DNA of 39,132 nucleotides from a bacterium (lineage in GTDB: Bacteria > Patescibacteriota > Minisyncoccia > Phycocordibacterales > Phycocordibacteraceae): assembly GCA_021849125.1 (NCBI GenBank), contig JAJZTG010000006.1, forward strand, positions 1 through 39,132, given 5' to 3'. Under the pieces are notes generated by a model. It had not been told where the DNA came from, made no database searches, and saw only the letters and a list, made by a program, of their open reading frames with translations. Position numbers and translations under genes: made by a program. Each line of letters begins with the position of its first letter. Positions within the stretch are counted from its first letter, which is position 1. Positions 1,136-24,934 of the stretch are shown here, one piece after another.

Positions 1136-3616
1136 ATGGCACGCGGCAAGAAAGAAGAAAGCGAAAACGCACCGGAAGAAGCGATGGTGAATGTCATCGA
1201 GCAGCCGATCGTGGCTGAGATGCGCGAGTCCTACATCAGCTATGCGATGTCGGTCATCACCGCTCGTGCGCTCCCGGACGTACGTGACGGCTTGAAGCCG
1301 GTGCATCGCCGCATCCTCTTTGCCATGAAGGATCTGGGCCTCACGCCAAGCGCCAAGTTCCGCAAATCGGCCGCCGTGGTCGGCGACGTGCTCGGTAAGT
1401 ATCACCCGCACGGCGATATCGCCGTCTATGATGCGATGGCGAAACTCGCGCAGGAATTCACGACCCGCTATCCGCTCGTCTTGGGTCAGGGTAACTTCGG
1501 CTCGATCGACGGCGACTCGCCGGCTGCCATGCGTTACACCGAAGCGAAGATGTCGCGCGTGGGCGAAGCGATGCTTACCGATATCGACAAGGAAACCGTC
1601 GCCTGGAGCCCGAACTACGATGCGACGCGCGATGAACCGAAGGTCCTTCCTGCGGCGCTCCCGAACCTGCTTCTGAACGGTACGCTCGGTATCGCGGTCG
1701 GTATGGCGACCAACATCCCGCCGCATAACCTGCGCGAAGTCGTCGCGGCGACGGTGCACCTGATCGACAACCCGGACGCGACGACCGAGGATCTTCTTGA
1801 ATTCGTGAAAGGTCCGGATTTCCCATTGGGCGCGATCGCCTTCAACCAGGCGGATATCCGCCACGCGTACTCGACCGGCAAGGGCCCGGTGGTGGTGCGC
1901 GGCGAGGCGGAGATCATCGATGACGGCAAGAAGGATACGAAGATCGTCATCACCTCGATTCCGTACCGCGTGAACAAGAGCGAACTCATCGCACGCATCG
2001 CCGAGCTCGTGCAGGACAAGAAGATCGAAGGTATCCGCGATCTGCGCGATGAGTCGACCTCGGACATCCGCGTCGTCGTCGAGCTTAAGGGCACCGCACA
2101 CCCGCAGGCGGTCCTAAACGCCCTCTATAAGCACACCGAGCTTGAGAGCACCTTCCACTACAACATGCTTGCGCTCGTCGACGGCGTGCCGGAGATGCTT
2201 TCCTTGCAGGCCATGCTCGAGCACTTCGTTGGCCACCGACAGGAAGTCGTGAAGCGCCGCACCGAATACGATCTGCGTCAGGCCGAGGCGCGCGAGCACA
2301 TCCTGCTCGGGCTCTGTAAGGCGCTCGATCATATCGACGAGGTCATCGCGATCATCAAGAAGGCGGCCGATATTCCGTCGGCGAGCGCAGCTCTCCAGAA
2401 GAAATTCGGCTTTTCCGCACTCCAAGCGGCCGCTATTCTCGAGATGCGCCTCTCCAAGCTTGCCGGTCTCGAGCGCAAGAAGCTCGAAGACGAGCTTTCC
2501 GAGGTACAGGCCCTCATCAAGAAGTTGAAGGACATCCTCTCTTCGCCCAAGAAGATCCTCGCAGTCGTGAAGAAGGAACTCGAGGAGCTCGCCGAAAAAT
2601 ATGGCGACGATCGCCGCACCAAGGTCATGAAGGGCGGCGTGAAGAATATTTCCGTAGAAGACCTCGTGCCGGATGAGGATTCGGTGCTCGTCCTCACGCA
2701 GGGCGGGTACGTGAAGCGCACGAACCCGAGCGAATACAAGGCGCAGAAGCGTGGCGGCGTCGGCGTCGTCGATATCGCGACCAAAGAAGAAGACGTGGTC
2801 ACGCATTTCCTTGTGGCCTCAGCGCATAGCGATCTCCTCTTTTTCACCGATTTCGGTAAGGCGTATCAGCTCAAGATGTACGAGCTCCCAGAGGGTCGTC
2901 GCGCGACCAAAGGCAAGAGCATCATGAACTTCCTCCAGCTTTCGGCTGAGGAGAAGGTGACTTCCATCTTGCCGGTACCGAAGGGTTCGGCACTCGATGC
3001 ATCCTCCGTCACATTCGTTACGGGAGAGGGTGTCGTGAAGCGTGTCGCGGCAAAGGCGTTTGCTGACGTCCGTCGCTCAGGCATCATCGCGATCAATCTC
3101 AAGGGTTCCGACAAGCTCGTGTCAGCGAACCTTTCCGCGGAGGGTGACACAGTCTCCATCGTGACCTCGAAAGGTCAGTCGATCCGTTTCGACGTCGAAG
3201 ACGTGCGCGAGATGGGCCGTACGGCAGGCGGCGTGAAGGGCATGACGGTCAAGAAGGGCGATAGGGTTGTCTCCGCGGAAGTCGTGAAGGCCGAAGAAGC
3301 AGATCACTCGTCGCTCCTCGTCATCATGAGTAAGGGTTACGGCAAACGCACGGCGCTCTCCGAGTACAAGGTGCAGGGCCGTGGCGGTTCGGGCATCAAG
3401 ACCGCGGAAGTTACCGCAAAGACCGGCGAGATCATCGGCGCGAAGGTTGTGGACGATAAGGTTGAGGATGGCGATGAGATCGTCGTCGTCTCGAAGAAAG
3501 GGCAGGTGATCCGCACGAGCGTGGCAGAGATTTCCAAGCTCTCGCGCGCGACCCAGGGTGTCCGCGTCATGAAGATGCGGGAGGGGGATTCCATCGCAAG
3601 CATGGCCGCCCTGTAG
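1136..3616 (+). CDS. gyrA: DNA gyrase subunit A
   Basis: 826 aa; [37 protein letters not shown] (active-site Tyr), GyrA-box-like QKRGGVG and beta-pinwheel repeats. Confidence 0.95.
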
Positions 3617-3739: not shown

Positions 3740-3808
3740 TGAATATCCCCAGAGAGCATTCGTTTTGGCGTACGTTATGCTACCGTGGTGAAAGGGAATG
3801 ACGGTTCC

Positions 3809-3956
3809 TTTGCACGGGACAAGATTTGGTTTTGTGGAAAATGCGGGATTCGAACCCGCGGGGGTACTGAGTTGTAAGAGCCGTTCCCCCGTTCGGTTGG
3901 AAACCGAATGCATTAAACCACTCTGCCAATTTTCCTCACGTCTTGTCCCGTGCAAA
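3809..3956. repeat. 16-bp perfect inverted repeat flanking the tRNA
   Basis: tttgcacgggacaaga (3809-3824) and tcttgtcccgtgcaaa (3941-3956). Confidence 0.9.
3835..3935 (-). tRNA. class II (long variable arm) tRNA, apparent anticodon UCC; Ser-like body; possibly aberrant or a pseudogene
   Basis: Minus strand: acceptor GGAAAAT/ATTTTCC, D-arm GCAGAGTGGTTTAATGC, anticodon arm TTCGG-TTTCCAA-CCGAA, ~32-nt variable region CGGGGG...CCCCC, T-arm GCGGG-TTCGAAT-CCCGC, discriminator A; no encoded CCA. Confidence 0.75.
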
Positions 3957-4111
3957 AGACCTGTCTCCTCTAGACATTGTAAATACGATAGGGTCAAATT
4001 TCATGTGGATAGCGGCATTCTGAAACGGTTGGGAAATTTTTCAATACAAGTGATGTGCCGTTTTAGCATCGTCTTAAGGACATGCAAATTAAGAGGTGCT
4101 ATTATGGAAAG

Positions 4112-4490: not shown

Positions 4491-4552
4491 CGCCCCCACA
4501 CTAACTACTGTGCATACATGATGCCGTAGTTGGTGTGGGGGCGTGCTATTTT
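4491..4552 (+). terminator. strong intrinsic terminator
   Basis: cgcccccacactaactac...gtagttggtgtgggggcg, ~18-bp stem, followed by tgctattttt (which also overlaps the next promoter). Confidence 0.8.
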
Positions 4553-4559
4553 TATACAT

Positions 4560-5105
4560 ATGGTAAGCGCCTCATTCAGCGTGCCGCAGGAGAACGTCCT
4601 CCAGCTCGGACTTCGTGAAGGCATGAAGGTCGGCGAGTTCGGAGTCGGGAGCGGGCACTACGCGCGCGCGGCGGCTGGCGTCGTGGGGCCGAGCGGGAAA
4701 GTCTACGCGGTGGATGTGCAGGAAGACATCCTTAAGCACGTAAAGCTCAATACGCACGAGCGTCATGAGCGCGTCATCGAGACCGTCTGGGGGGATATCG
4801 AGAAGCCAGGTGGCTCGCACCTGCGTGACGCTTCGCTCGATGCGCTCATTCTCGCCAATACGCTCTTCCAGGTAGAGAACCGTTTCGGGCTCCTTTCCGA
4901 GATGAAGCGTGTCTTAAAGCCAGGCGCCAAACTCCTGGTCGTCGACTGGGCCGGAAGCTACGCGGGCATGGGACCGACTCCCGATAAGGTCGTTCCCGAG
5001 CATGAGGCCGAGGCATTCTTTATCAACGGCGGGTTCCATAAGGCAAAAGCCTTTCGTGCAGGACCGCATCATTACGGGATCGTATTCACCATGCCTAGCC
5101 TATGA
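4560..5105 (+). CDS. class I SAM-dependent methyltransferase
   Basis: GMKVGEFGVGSGHYARAAAGVVGPSGKVYAVDVQ (motif I) and LKPGAKLLVVDW; start at 4560 chosen because TGCTATTTT (4544-4552) ends 7 nt upstream. Confidence 0.85.
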   Translation: MVSASFSVPQENVLQLGLREGMKVGEFGVGSGHYARAAAGVVGPSGKVYAVDVQEDILKHVKLNTHERHERVIETVWGDIEKPGGSHLRDASLDALILANTLFQVENRFGLLSEMKRVLKPGAKLLVVDWAGSYAGMGPTPDKVVPEHEAEAFFINGGFHKAKAFRAGPHHYGIVFTMPSL

Positions 5106-6409
5106 AAGTCTCGCTTTTCCAAGGGATCCTTTTCGCAATATTCGGTTTCGCCGCGCTTGTCGGACTCTTCGTTTTCTCGACGCACACGAGTACGACCGGA
5201 GGCGGCGCGTCAGAAGTGGGGTTGGTCACTATCTGGGGAACGCTCTCCAAACAAGACATCCAGAACGCGCTTACCGCGATAGGGCAAACGGACCAGTCCT
5301 TCAAGGAAGTCTCGTATGTACAGAAAGATGAAGCGACCCTCGCGAGCGACCTCGCTTCCGCGATCGCGACAGGCGATGCGCCTGACCTCGTGCTTGCTTC
5401 GCAGGAAAACCTTCAGTCGCTTGCAAGGCTCATTACTCCCATCCCGACCTCGACACTCTCGGCCGCAAGCTTCACCAGTGCTTTCATTGCCGAAGCGCAG
5501 CTTCTTACCACTCCGGACGGCTCGGGGTACTACGGCGTACCGTTTCTGGTCGACCCGCTCGTGCTTTTTTCGAATCGCGCGCTCCTGGCCTCGAAAGGCA
5601 TCGCGAAACCGCCTGCGACCTGGGAAGCGCTTACCGGTCTCGTCTCGACGGTGGCAGAGCTCACGCCGAATCGCCAGATCACGCGGGGGCTTATCGGGCT
5701 TGGCACCTATGACAACGTGCATAACGCGCGCGGCATCCTTTCTTCGCTTTTCTTGCAGACAGGGATACCCGTCTCGTTCTATAGGAATGGTGTCCTTGCA
5801 GCGAATCTGAGCAGCGGTACGTCAGGGACGAGCGTCCCGGGGCAAGCCGTTATCGGTTTCTATTCGCAGTTTGCGGATCCTTCGAAGCTTTCCTACACCT
5901 GGAATGCCTCGCTTCCTGACTCGCAGAAAGCATTCCTTTCAGGTGATCTCGCACTCTATCTCGGCTATGTTTCCGAGGCGCGATTCTTGCGCAATGCCAA
6001 TCCGAATCTCGATTTCGTCGTCGCGCCGTTGCCGCAACCGGGTACGGCGACCCTCAAATCGGCGTATGGCATCTTGTACTCCTTCATGATCCCGCGCGGC
6101 GCAAAGAACCCCTCGGGGGCATATCAGGCAGCAGCACTTCTCACCAGTAGCGCCGAGCAGGCGATTGCGGCGCAGGTGACCGGTCTTGCCCCGGTTTCTC
6201 TCACCGAGCTCTCGACGGCTCCCGCAGACCCGGTCGCTTCCGTCGCGTATGCTGAAGCGCTTTACGCGAACGGCTGGCTGTCCCCAACGCCCGCAAGCAC
6301 GGACCAGGTCTTTTCTAGTATGATTACAGGCGTGATAACCGGCCGTTTTACACCTGCCACCGCGCTCTCTTCAGGAGAAAATTCGTTAAATCTGCTTCTA
6401 CAAAAATGA
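5102..6409 (+). CDS. N-terminally membrane-anchored extracellular solute-binding-like protein
   Basis: 435 aa; VTIWGTLSKQDIQNAL, GDAPDLVLAS, YYGVPFLVDPLVLFSNRALLASKGIAKPPATWEAL are SBP-family-like. N-terminal TM segment without a lipobox Cys. ATGA overlap with the upstream gene. Confidence 0.8.
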   Translation: MKVSLFQGILFAIFGFAALVGLFVFSTHTSTTGGGASEVGLVTIWGTLSKQDIQNALTAIGQTDQSFKEVSYVQKDEATLASDLASAIATGDAPDLVLASQENLQSLARLITPIPTSTLSAASFTSAFIAEAQLLTTPDGSGYYGVPFLVDPLVLFSNRALLASKGIAKPPATWEALTGLVSTVAELTPNRQITRGLIGLGTYDNVHNARGILSSLFLQTGIPVSFYRNGVLAANLSSGTSGTSVPGQAVIGFYSQFADPSKLSYTWNASLPDSQKAFLSGDLALYLGYVSEARFLRNANPNLDFVVAPLPQPGTATLKSAYGILYSFMIPRGAKNPSGAYQAAALLTSSAEQAIAAQVTGLAPVSLTELSTAPADPVASVAYAEALYANGWLSPTPASTDQVFSSMITGVITGRFTPATALSSGENSLNLLLQK

Positions 6410-6825
6410 CTATGCCTACCATTCGTTCATTCGTTATCGCGGCACTCCTTGTCGTGTCGTTTGTACCGTTCGCGCATGCGGCAACCACCACCACTCCGCC
6501 GCCAAGTACCGTGACCACCACCACTCCGCCGCCAAGTACCGGTACCCAGGGTTCGGTGACTCTCATAAATCCTCTCGGCACCGGCACCACGCTCGAAGTA
6601 TTCCTGCAGAGGATCCTTGCTGTCGTAATCCGTGTCGGTTCGATCGTCGTTATCCTCATGCTGGTGTATACCGGATATAGTTTCGTAGCTGCACGAGGGG
6701 CACCGGCAGAGATAGAAAATGCGAAGAAGATGCTCCTCTGGACGGTCATCGGAGCACTCATACTGCTTGGTGCTCAAGCGATAGCTTCTGGCATCCTCGC
6801 GACCATACAGGCGCTCGGCGGGTAA
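6406..6825 (+). CDS. pilin-like (TrbC/VirB2-type) small membrane protein with Thr/Pro linker
   Basis: Signal peptide, duplicated TTTTPPPST linker, two TM segments around EIENAKKMLLWTVIGALILL. Confidence 0.75.
   Translation: MTMPTIRSFVIAALLVVSFVPFAHAATTTTPPPSTVTTTTPPPSTGTQGSVTLINPLGTGTTLEVFLQRILAVVIRVGSIVVILMLVYTGYSFVAARGAPAEIENAKKMLLWTVIGALILLGAQAIASGILATIQALGG
6484..6543 (+). repeat. two tandem copies of a 30-bp coding repeat
   Basis: accaccaccactccgccgccaagtacc repeated at 6484 and 6514. Confidence 0.9.
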
Positions 6826-6830
6826 TCCTT

Positions 6831-7094
6831 ATGACGTTTGCGCAATTTGTCGGTAGCGGGAGTACGGGCATCATAGGAGTCATAAATACGGTCATTGTCC
6901 CGATCATCTTCGCTCTCGCCTTTGCTGCTTTCGTCTGGGGCGTCGTAAGCTATTTTTTCATTCACGGCGGAGAAGAAGGGAAACGTGCTGAAGGCAGGAA
7001 CTTCATCCTTTGGGGCGTGATCGGCATGGCGGTACTTTTCTCCGTTTGGGGGTTTGTAGGTCTTCTGTTATCCACGCTTGGCATCGCACGCTAA
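6831..7094 (+). CDS. pilin-like (TrbC/VirB2-type) small membrane protein
   Basis: VIVPIIFALAFAAFVWGVVSYFF...EGRNFILWGVIGMAVLFSVWGFVGLL; same architecture as its neighbours. Confidence 0.75.
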   Translation: MTFAQFVGSGSTGIIGVINTVIVPIIFALAFAAFVWGVVSYFFIHGGEEGKRAEGRNFILWGVIGMAVLFSVWGFVGLLLSTLGIAR

Positions 7095-7119
7095 GCATAA
7101 TGTGCCATACTACATGCAT

Positions 7120-7554
7120 ATGAAATCGCTTATCCGCACCTCATTACTCGCGCTTATCTTGGTATTTCCGACCGCCGCTTCTGCCGTATATGATCAGACC
7201 ATCACTACGACATATAATTTCGGCCTAGGCTCGTTCCCGGGCGGTTTTACCACGGGAACGGCTTGCTATGGTGGCGGGATAGGCTGCATCGCCGCGATCA
7301 TCCTCTACCTCATCAACAGCGTCTTGGTGCCGCTTCTTTTTGCCGTCTCCTTCATTGTCTTCCTCTACGGAGTCGCTAAGGCGTACATCTTCTCTCATGG
7401 CGATTCAGCTGAGATCGGGAAAGGGCACCAGCTCATCCTTTGGGGACTTATCGGCTTCGTCGTCATGGTGTCGCTCTGGGGCCTCGTAAACGTTGCCGCT
7501 AACACCTTCGGTCTCTGGGGTTCAAGAGCACCGATACTCCCGACTTCCTACTGA
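7120..7554 (+). CDS. pilin-like (TrbC/VirB2-type) small membrane protein
   Basis: Signal peptide MKSLIRTSLLALILVFPTAASA; SVLVPLLFAVSFIVFLYGV...GHQLILWGLIGFVVMVSLWGLVNV. Confidence 0.75.
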   Translation: MKSLIRTSLLALILVFPTAASAVYDQTITTTYNFGLGSFPGGFTTGTACYGGGIGCIAAIILYLINSVLVPLLFAVSFIVFLYGVAKAYIFSHGDSAEIGKGHQLILWGLIGFVVMVSLWGLVNVAANTFGLWGSRAPILPTSY

Positions 7555-7556
7555 TC

Positions 7557-8000
7557 ATGAAAAATATCTTCATCGCTTTTCTTTTCGGTATAGCAGGACT
7601 GCTCGTCCCAGCGTCGGCATATGCCGCTCCGTTTGTCGGTCCTTGTCCGGCGGGGCAGCGCCCCACTGCAACGGGTTGTGAGGTTATCCCTGCTGCGGGA
7701 GGTGGCGGCATCAATATAGGTCTCGTTACCCAGTATTCCTCAGGCATCCTTGCCCTCATCAACCAGGTTTTTGTCCCCGTCCTCTTCGCGATCGCCTTTC
7801 TCACCTTCCTGTATGGCGTCTATAAGTACTTCATCCTAGGAGCGGCAAACGAAGCTGAGCGTGCCAAAGGACGCGACTTCGTGCTCTGGGGCATCATCGG
7901 TTTTGTCGTCATCCTCTCTGTCTGGGGTCTCGTCGCTATCGTCGGTCGCACATTCGGCCTTCAGGCCGGCGGTACCGCTCCGGCCGCTCCCACCCTCTGA
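7557..8000 (+). CDS. pilin-like (TrbC/VirB2-type) small membrane protein
   Basis: Signal peptide; QVFVPVLFAIAFLTFLYGVYKYF...GRDFVLWGIIGFVVILSVWGLVAI. Confidence 0.75.
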   Translation: MKNIFIAFLFGIAGLLVPASAYAAPFVGPCPAGQRPTATGCEVIPAAGGGGINIGLVTQYSSGILALINQVFVPVLFAIAFLTFLYGVYKYFILGAANEAERAKGRDFVLWGIIGFVVILSVWGLVAIVGRTFGLQAGGTAPAAPTL

Positions 8001-8081
8001 CTATCCACACGTGAGGGAGTCGAGCATTGACCGCATATTCTAAAAAGCTACAATTAACTACATTAATCGATTACCTGTCTT

Positions 8082-8465
8082 ATGAAAAAAGCCCTCGTTC
8101 TTACTTCCGGAACCTTTGCAGCGCTCGCGCTGCCGCTCGTCTCTTCAGCCGCGACGACGATCGCTAACATCTCTGATGTCGGCTCGTTCATGATTAACAC
8201 GATTAATAACATCATCGTCCCGGTTCTTTTCGCGATCGCCTTCATCGTCTTCGTGTACGGTGCATTCGAGACTTTCATTATCGGCGCGAACAGTGACTCG
8301 GTGAAAGAGAAGGGCAAGAACCTCATGCTCTGGGGCCTCATCGGTTTCTTCGTGATGGTCTCCGTCTGGGGCTTGGTGAACATCCTTACCGGTACCGTGA
8401 GCTTCACGAGCACGTCAGGTGTCACGGGCGGTACGCCTAAGGCAGGTGTCCAGATCGGACAGTAA
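8082..8465 (+). CDS. pilin-like (TrbC/VirB2-type) small membrane protein
   Basis: Signal peptide; NIIVPVLFAIAFIVFVYGAFETF...GKNLMLWGLIGFFVMVSVWGLVNI. Confidence 0.75.
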   Translation: MKKALVLTSGTFAALALPLVSSAATTIANISDVGSFMINTINNIIVPVLFAIAFIVFVYGAFETFIIGANSDSVKEKGKNLMLWGLIGFFVMVSVWGLVNILTGTVSFTSTSGVTGGTPKAGVQIGQ

Positions 8466-24361: not shown

Positions 24362-24782
24362 AGAGGATCAATCGGGCCCTTTTCCGGCCTCTGCGTCGTA
24401 GACGCCAAGGACTTGATCCAACGGGGTGCCGAAACGTCCCCTATCCTTGTGCCGGGTGGTATGCCCGGCCATTACTTCGTCGACGCGTATGCATCGTTGT
24501 CTCCTCTCTCGTTGTGGAGAATCTAAAAAGAGTATTGCGTATATATAGGTATTTGTCAATACTTCGCAGATTCGTTTTTGTACCAAAGCTTGGTCACGAG
24601 TCGCTAACCGTTTTGCTCCAGGCATTCGCAAAACGCTAAGCGCTCTCGACCCCGGCTCGCTATCCTCGCAGAGCCTCGGACATAGCTGCGCCTTTCAAGT
24701 CCCTCACGCATGACGCGCAGGCGTCATGCTTCCCGGCACAAACGAAAACAGCCCCCTGCGGGCTGCTTCATTTGTGCCAGGA

Positions 24783-24833
24783 GAGGGACTTGAACCCTCA
24801 CGCCTTTCGACAATTGGTTTTGAATCAATCGCG
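24783..24833 (-). pseudogene. truncated duplicate of tRNA-Leu(CAA): anticodon to T-arm
   Basis: 51 bp identical to 24862-24912 in the intact tRNA; no matching D-arm or 5' acceptor strand attached. Confidence 0.85.
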
Positions 24834-24853
24834 CCCCGATACTGAAAACGCTG

Positions 24854-24934
24854 TGCTGGAGGAGGGACTTGAACCCTCACGCCTTTCGACAATTGGTTTT
24901 GAATCAATCGCGTCTACCATTCCGCCACTCCAGC
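24854..24934 (-). tRNA. tRNA-Leu (CAA)
   Basis: GCTGGAGTGGCGGAATGGTAGACGC, anticodon loop TTCAAAA, variable arm, T-arm GAGGGTTCAAGTCCCTC, acceptor CTCCAGC, A73. Confidence 0.92.

Follow-up and report, generated by a model that had tools for sequence, protein, structure and literature searches.

The window, by which we mean the whole 39,132-nt stretch analyzed here, comes from a genome (G000) of 578 kb in 7 contigs that is 99.6% complete and in which 39 tRNAs were found; those relatives of its GyrA that bear names place it among Candidatus Kaiserbacteria (Paceibacterota/Patescibacteria). A tRNA gene on the minus strand lies between gyrA, with which it is convergent and which serves as an anchor of synteny, and a methyltransferase-like gene, the first clear gene in the opposite direction (Table 1). 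Infernal matched the tRNA model RF00005 to positions 3835-3935 over its full length (1-71) with 60.1 bits (gathering threshold of 29) and gave no tRNA on the plus strand of the same positions. ARAGORN made no call for this tRNA, probably because of its 32-nt variable arm. Read directly from 5′ to 3′, its parts are GGAAAAT-TG-GCA(GAGTGGTTTAA)TGC-A-TTCGG(TTTCCAA)CCGAA-CGGGGG..CCCCC-GCGGG(TTCGAAT)CCCGC-ATTTTCC-A, with an acceptor stem of 7 bp (GGAAAAT/ATTTTCC), a D-stem of 3 bp (GCA/TGC) and a T-stem of 5 bp (GCGGG(TTCGAAT)CCCGC). Further along the window, four small proteins resembling T4SS pilins (TrbC/VirB2) are encoded in a run at 6406-8465.

Table 1. Features of the locus and positions of the orphan ORF in other genomes (window coordinates unless a locus is named)
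Feature	Position	Strand	Basis or remark
gyrA	1136..3616	+	Pfam DNA_topoisoIV, DNA_gyraseA_C
Inverted repeat, 3′ arm, TCTTGTCCCGTGCAAAGGAACCGTC	3800..3824	-	Pairs with 3941-3965
Class II tRNA gene, Ser-type body, anticodon UCC, A73, no encoded CCA	3835..3935	-	Infernal, 60.1 bits
Variable arm, 32 nt, GGGGG/CCCCC stem	3860..3891	-	Direct reading and class II comparison
Anticodon stem TTCGG/CCGAA	3904-3908 / 3892-3896	-	Direct reading
Anticodon TCC in loop TTTCCAA (3897-3903)	3899..3901	-	Direct reading
Inverted repeat, 5′ arm, GACAGGTCTTTTGCACGGGACAAGA on the minus strand	3941..3965	-	25 nt, 88%
Promoter-like site ATGAAA-17-TACAAT, weak consensus match	3976..4004	-	3 found, 0.7 expected by chance
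41-nt box upstream of the tRNA	4004..4044	-	83% identity to G035 (L052:9404-9364)
Methyltransferase-like gene	4530..5105	+	Pfam Methyltransf_11; syntenic in G035
Orphan ORF, G009	L088:7583-8095		Genus search
Orphan ORF, G015	L351:1943-2451		Genus search
Orphan ORF, G029	L357 about 1880-1340	-	Genus search

With a cloverleaf and a variable arm well above the roughly 10 nt that define the class, this is a class II tRNA, and its GGA.. acceptor, C11-G24 pair and long variable arm give it a Ser-type body; both the match and the part-by-part reading thus bear out the description, in an earlier, sequence-only reading of this DNA, of a minus-strand class II tRNA with a Ser-type body and a UCC anticodon. 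All 45 Ser tRNAs that we gathered from the order begin their acceptor with GGA, whereas none of the genuine Leu or Tyr tRNAs does. The variable arm is unusually long (32 nt versus 13-21 nt in 109 other class II tRNAs collected). Two other serine hallmarks are absent: the discriminator base is A73 rather than the G73 found in 45 of 45 Ser tRNAs, and the anticodon is UCC rather than NGA or GCU/ACU. The gene is not visibly broken, since U8, A14, G15, G18G19, A21, C48, U33 and TTCGA are all in place and no stem is disrupted. Ordinary Ser tRNAs (GGA, UGA, CGA, GCU) and Gly tRNAs (UCC, GCC, CCC) are both present in G000, including the Ser-GGA and standard Gly-UCC genes whose presence the earlier reading had proposed to check, each in ordinary form. 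The window tRNA is therefore an extra gene. Reassignment of GGA was excluded: in homologues of the genes of the window, GGA columns have a glycine majority in 25 of 28 cases, as do GGC columns in 97 of 105, and the remaining Gly codons behave alike. GGA is thus still glycine, and any serine at this codon must be a minority event.

We found an orthologue in the sister genome G035, whose gyrA is 76% identical to that of G000 at the DNA level and in which the order gyrA - repeat - tRNA - repeat - methyltransferase is conserved. The syntenic tRNA is of Ser type, with a GGA acceptor start, G73, an encoded CCA, an 18-nt variable arm and the anticodon UAA; an ordinary Leu-UAA is also present in that genome. 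A third member of the genus, G058, carries at a different place a Ser-type tRNA with a GGC start, G73, an encoded CCA and the anticodon UAG. Judged by their sequences, the G035 and G058 tRNAs join Leu anticodons to a signature like that of Ser tRNAs. All three tRNAs have the same T-arm, and among 110 class II tRNAs the D- and T-arms closest to those of the window tRNA are those of the G058 UAG tRNA (0.95). A pattern search of 106 genomes of the family, 93 of them in the genus, returned Ser-type misfits in these three genomes only, the rest being Tyr and Ser-GCU tRNAs of the usual form; our searches of the genus and of the order covered samples of species representatives, 397 genomes in the case of the order.

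Between G000 and G035, 5 of the 20 cloverleaf pairs (four in the acceptor, one in the anticodon stem) have changed on both sides and none is broken. This pattern points to a fold under selection and speaks against decay, an assembly error or contamination. A decaying extra tRNA or an assembly artefact without function would fit the rarity of the gene in the genus, its odd variable-arm length, its A73 in place of G73, and the fact that the named relatives are metagenome-assembled genomes, as the source genome probably is. We nevertheless regard this explanation, which includes the pseudogene envisaged by the sequence-only reading, as highly unlikely in view of an independently assembled syntenic copy with compensated pairs and of flanking arms that are 94% conserved.

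The same reading had noted that the anticodon hairpin reads TTCGG-TTGGAAA-CCGAA on the plus strand, and had inferred a local inversion of a Ser-GGA hairpin. Reverse-complemented, the loop does match a Ser-GGA loop exactly, and the plus-strand reading is literally correct, though trivial for the stem and of an expected kind for the loop. No inversion is needed, because the stem of a fully paired hairpin comes out unchanged when the other DNA strand is read, and any loop of the form T32 T33..A37 A38 then turns into another legal loop. Loops of the TT...AA kind occur in 20 of the 110 class II tRNAs collected, and TTTCCAA is the very loop of the Gly-UCC tRNA of G000. The Ser-GGA tRNA of G000 has a different anticodon stem (CCGCC/GGCGG versus TTCGG/CCGAA). 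No GGA ancestor is visible, since the anticodon is UAA in the syntenic G035 gene and UAG in the near relative from G058, where an inverted Ser-GGA tRNA would predict relatives with the same body and stem and a GGA anticodon. We consider the inversion scarcely credible.

The earlier reading passed over the inverted repeat that encloses the gene. Pairing between leader and trailer is by far the strongest among the 39 tRNAs of G000: none of 1482 cross-combinations of leaders and trailers is as stable, and the perfect match reaches 16 nt versus at most 10 in the cross-combinations. In G000 and G035 the arms agree at 50 of 53 positions (94%), although most of the nearby intergenic DNA, apart from the 41-nt upstream box, cannot be aligned; of the three differences, two form a double change that keeps a pair and the third breaks one. 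Covariation of the outer helix in alignment A2 is there by construction, the arms having been chosen, and is evidential for the orthologous pair only. The promoter-like site, a weak match, would place the start of transcription close to the outer edge of the 5′ arm. Inspection by eye of G000, G035 and G459 (a genome of another family, described below) revealed neither a transposase nor a target-site duplication, no match pointing to a phage origin was obtained in 50,697 phage records, and the GC skew of the window shows no clear switch of the kind expected in a replication origin context. DnaA-box-like TATCCACA/TTATCCACA motifs lie near several odd tRNAs (window 4004-4011, L088 7507-7525, L165 1217-1225).

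Class II tRNAs with misfit anticodons flanked by hairpins recur elsewhere. In G009 (L088), a Leu-type tRNA with the anticodon GUU is found just downstream of gyrA; G015 carries one with UGU whose hairpin and body are homologous to those of the G009 copy; and in G029 a GUU class II tRNA with flanking hairpin adjoins an orphan ORF. In G459 (L165; G459:C5:83179-83296), a Leu-type tRNA with the Trp anticodon CCA lies in a 15-nt perfect inverted repeat (GAGCAGAGGAAGTAA/TTACTTCCTCTGCTC). By lineage, the anticodons are UCC/UAA in that of the window, GUU/UGU/GUU in a second, always beside the orphan ORF, and CCA in a third. The ORF (about 125 aa, MAFE..GRYTP.IS.GR.GFG) occurs directly upstream of the tRNA in 3 of 93 genomes of the genus (G009, G015, G029). 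It has no homologues in viral contigs and no useful match in Pfam, PHROGs, NCBIfam, PADLOC or PDB sequences, and its structure model (mean pLDDT of 36.6) was of no use. The G015 and G029 copies have lost both the D-loop GG and T55, a joint loss suggestive of molecules that resemble tRNAs but do not decode.

A hairpin is not by itself a mark of odd tRNAs, because the hairpin-plus-tRNA model R1 also matched many normal tRNAs between flanking repeats. Leu-CAA, Ser-UGA and Gly-CCC genes of the ordinary kind are often set within inverted repeats in this order, and frequently these interrupt another copy of the same tRNA. Nested tRNAs of this kind (Leu-CAA, Leu-UAA, Ser-UGA, Gly-CCC) were observed in the window and in L300, L315, L320, L332, L333, L299, L329 and L046. 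In the window, a nested Leu-CAA occupies 24776-24934 on the minus strand, with the outer 3′ part at about 24776-24833 and the inner gene at 24854-24934; the outer copy in L332 has an insertion of about 45 nt in its anticodon loop. A Pro-UGG tRNA flanked by GATGAGACATG/CATGTCTCATC lies downstream of the G029 orphan-ORF tRNA (L357, minus strand, about 1316-1222). A scan of viral contigs for class II UCC tRNAs yielded mostly chance matches. The real class II UCC tRNAs of viral contigs are a different thing: those in L172, L255, L260, L261 and L276 carry U73 together with a GC.. acceptor and look like Gly tRNAs whose variable arm is long, and some such genes adjoin class II Thr-UGU and Pro-UGG tRNAs.

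These observations bear on the possibility that the gene is a non-decoding element, either an RNA regulator, a decoy, a substrate of a non-ribosomal enzyme or a small mobile or integrating element, whose unused anticodon drifts. Such a role would suit arms conserved within largely unalignable flanks and a pairing unmatched among the 39 tRNAs, the unrelated hairpin-flanked misfits of G009, G015, G029 and G459, the harm to be expected from Leu at Asn or Trp codons, the presence of such a tRNA beside the orphan ORF in all three genomes of the genus that have the ORF, and the joint loss of the D-loop GG and T55 in G015 and G029. It also has a precedent in tRNA-Other of Bacillus cereus, an extra tRNA-like gene dispensable for decoding and without a role in translation (PMC3399842). 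That gene was reported as a pseudo-tRNA flanking a genomic island, a role of which there is no sign for the window tRNA. On the other hand, the tertiary consensus bases are all intact in the window family, two of its members encode CCA as tRNAs used in translation do, and the window element has neither an adjoining orphan ORF nor a visible transposase or target-site duplication. A non-decoding role is accordingly possible, if doubtful. We put forward, somewhat more hesitantly still, the idea of a recurrent accessory element in Candidatus Kaiserbacteria and relatives, to our knowledge undescribed, made of a repeat-enclosed class II tRNA-like gene that freely switches its anticodon and may have a non-decoding role.

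What bacterial SerRS recognizes is the long variable arm together with the acceptor stem and N73. Since the anticodon plays no part in serine identity (PMC9976931), it can drift in a spare Ser-type tRNA. We favor the interpretation, with a probability of roughly 0.42, that the window gene is a structurally intact accessory class II tRNA of serine lineage, a putative serine acceptor with a drifting anticodon. Its A73 makes the window copy the least certain serine-accepting member of the group, and these identity assignments rest on rules from model organisms. A challenge on this point is a switch of identity, in which a glycine isoacceptor on a class II body would be recognized by an α2 GlyRS through C35, C36, A73 and G1-C72, would carry the amino acid that matches its anticodon and would read GGA correctly. 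The GlyRS of G000 is of the α2 type (TIGR00389, 471.6 bits over joined pieces), which often goes with A73 (PMC3990555); A73 ends all Gly tRNAs of G000 and, among the three Ser-type tRNAs, is restricted to the member with the Gly anticodon. The window tRNA contains the consensus Gly elements G1-C72, C35 and C36 as well as the Thermus GlyRS elements G10, U16 and C50-G64 (PMC9976931). However, its 2-71 and 3-70 pairs are G-C and A-U rather than the C2-G71 and G3-C70 of the G000 Gly tRNAs, it has a 32-nt arm in place of a short variable loop, and in nematodes a variable arm fully overrides a Gly anticodon. Nor does the switch extend to the G035 and G058 tRNAs, whose G73 argues against their being leucine acceptors despite their Leu anticodons. 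We therefore find it unlikely.

Under the favored interpretation of an accessory Ser-type tRNA, the gene would be transcribed inside a long hairpin precursor, and the blindness of SerRS to the anticodon would let that of a spare tRNA drift, to UCC here, to UAA in the sister and to UAG in the third species. If matured, the tRNA would be charged mainly with serine, although A73 makes this the most doubtful step. A small fraction of GGA glycine codons could then receive serine, with the normal tRNA-Gly(UCC) as a competitor that keeps the level down. Transcription, charging, use by the ribosome and any benefit are inferred. Decoding does not account for the conserved hairpin, and the restriction of the Ser-type kind to three genomes of the family, by the pattern searched, also weighs against this interpretation. 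Overall the gene looks like a real accessory tRNA, probably engaged in low-level mischarging or in another job, and we count the suggestion of the earlier reading that an unusual identity or GGA misreading is possible as supported.

Known systems offer partial parallels, and by analogy the window gene is perhaps best read as an accessory Ser-type tRNA akin to allo-tRNAs and nev-tRNAs. As presented in the relevant section of PMC7609411, the allo-tRNAs (Mukai et al. 2017) are bacterial Ser-type tRNAs with long variable arms and many non-Ser anticodons, which correspond to 35 codons; for two of these tRNAs, insertion of Ser at Leu codons was demonstrated in E. coli. They have a 12-bp acceptor branch (8/4 or 9/3) unlike the 7/5 of the window tRNA and come from Clostridia, Proteobacteria and Acidobacteria, and that section describes no flanking hairpin. 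Nematode nev-tRNAs likewise join a class II body to a Gly (CCC) or Ile anticodon alongside a normal Gly tRNA; the charging of nev-tRNA-Gly is set by the body and not by the anticodon, and no mistranslation was detected in vivo in worms (PMC4300185). They are eukaryotic and leucine-charged, whereas the window tRNA is bacterial, of serine type and inside an inverted repeat. Anticodon shifts at syntenic loci with the body kept are also on record in eukaryotes (PMC3923123), in contrast to a bacterial case with a variable-arm body that mismatches the anticodon and a hairpin around the tRNA. What is new here is the sister locus with five compensatory changes and another anticodon, the close UAG relative in a third genome, the placement of the tRNA inside a 25-bp inverted repeat, and the recurrence of hairpin-flanked class II tRNAs with misfit anticodons.

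In symbionts with ultra-small genomes, extra genes are normally purged. Should the window tRNA accept serine, such a lineage would possess a natural mistranslating tRNA; if it does not, hairpin-enclosed, anticodon-switching tRNA-like genes would represent a new kind of small RNA element. Orthologues with different anticodons would offer a ready system for asking about selection on the anticodon.
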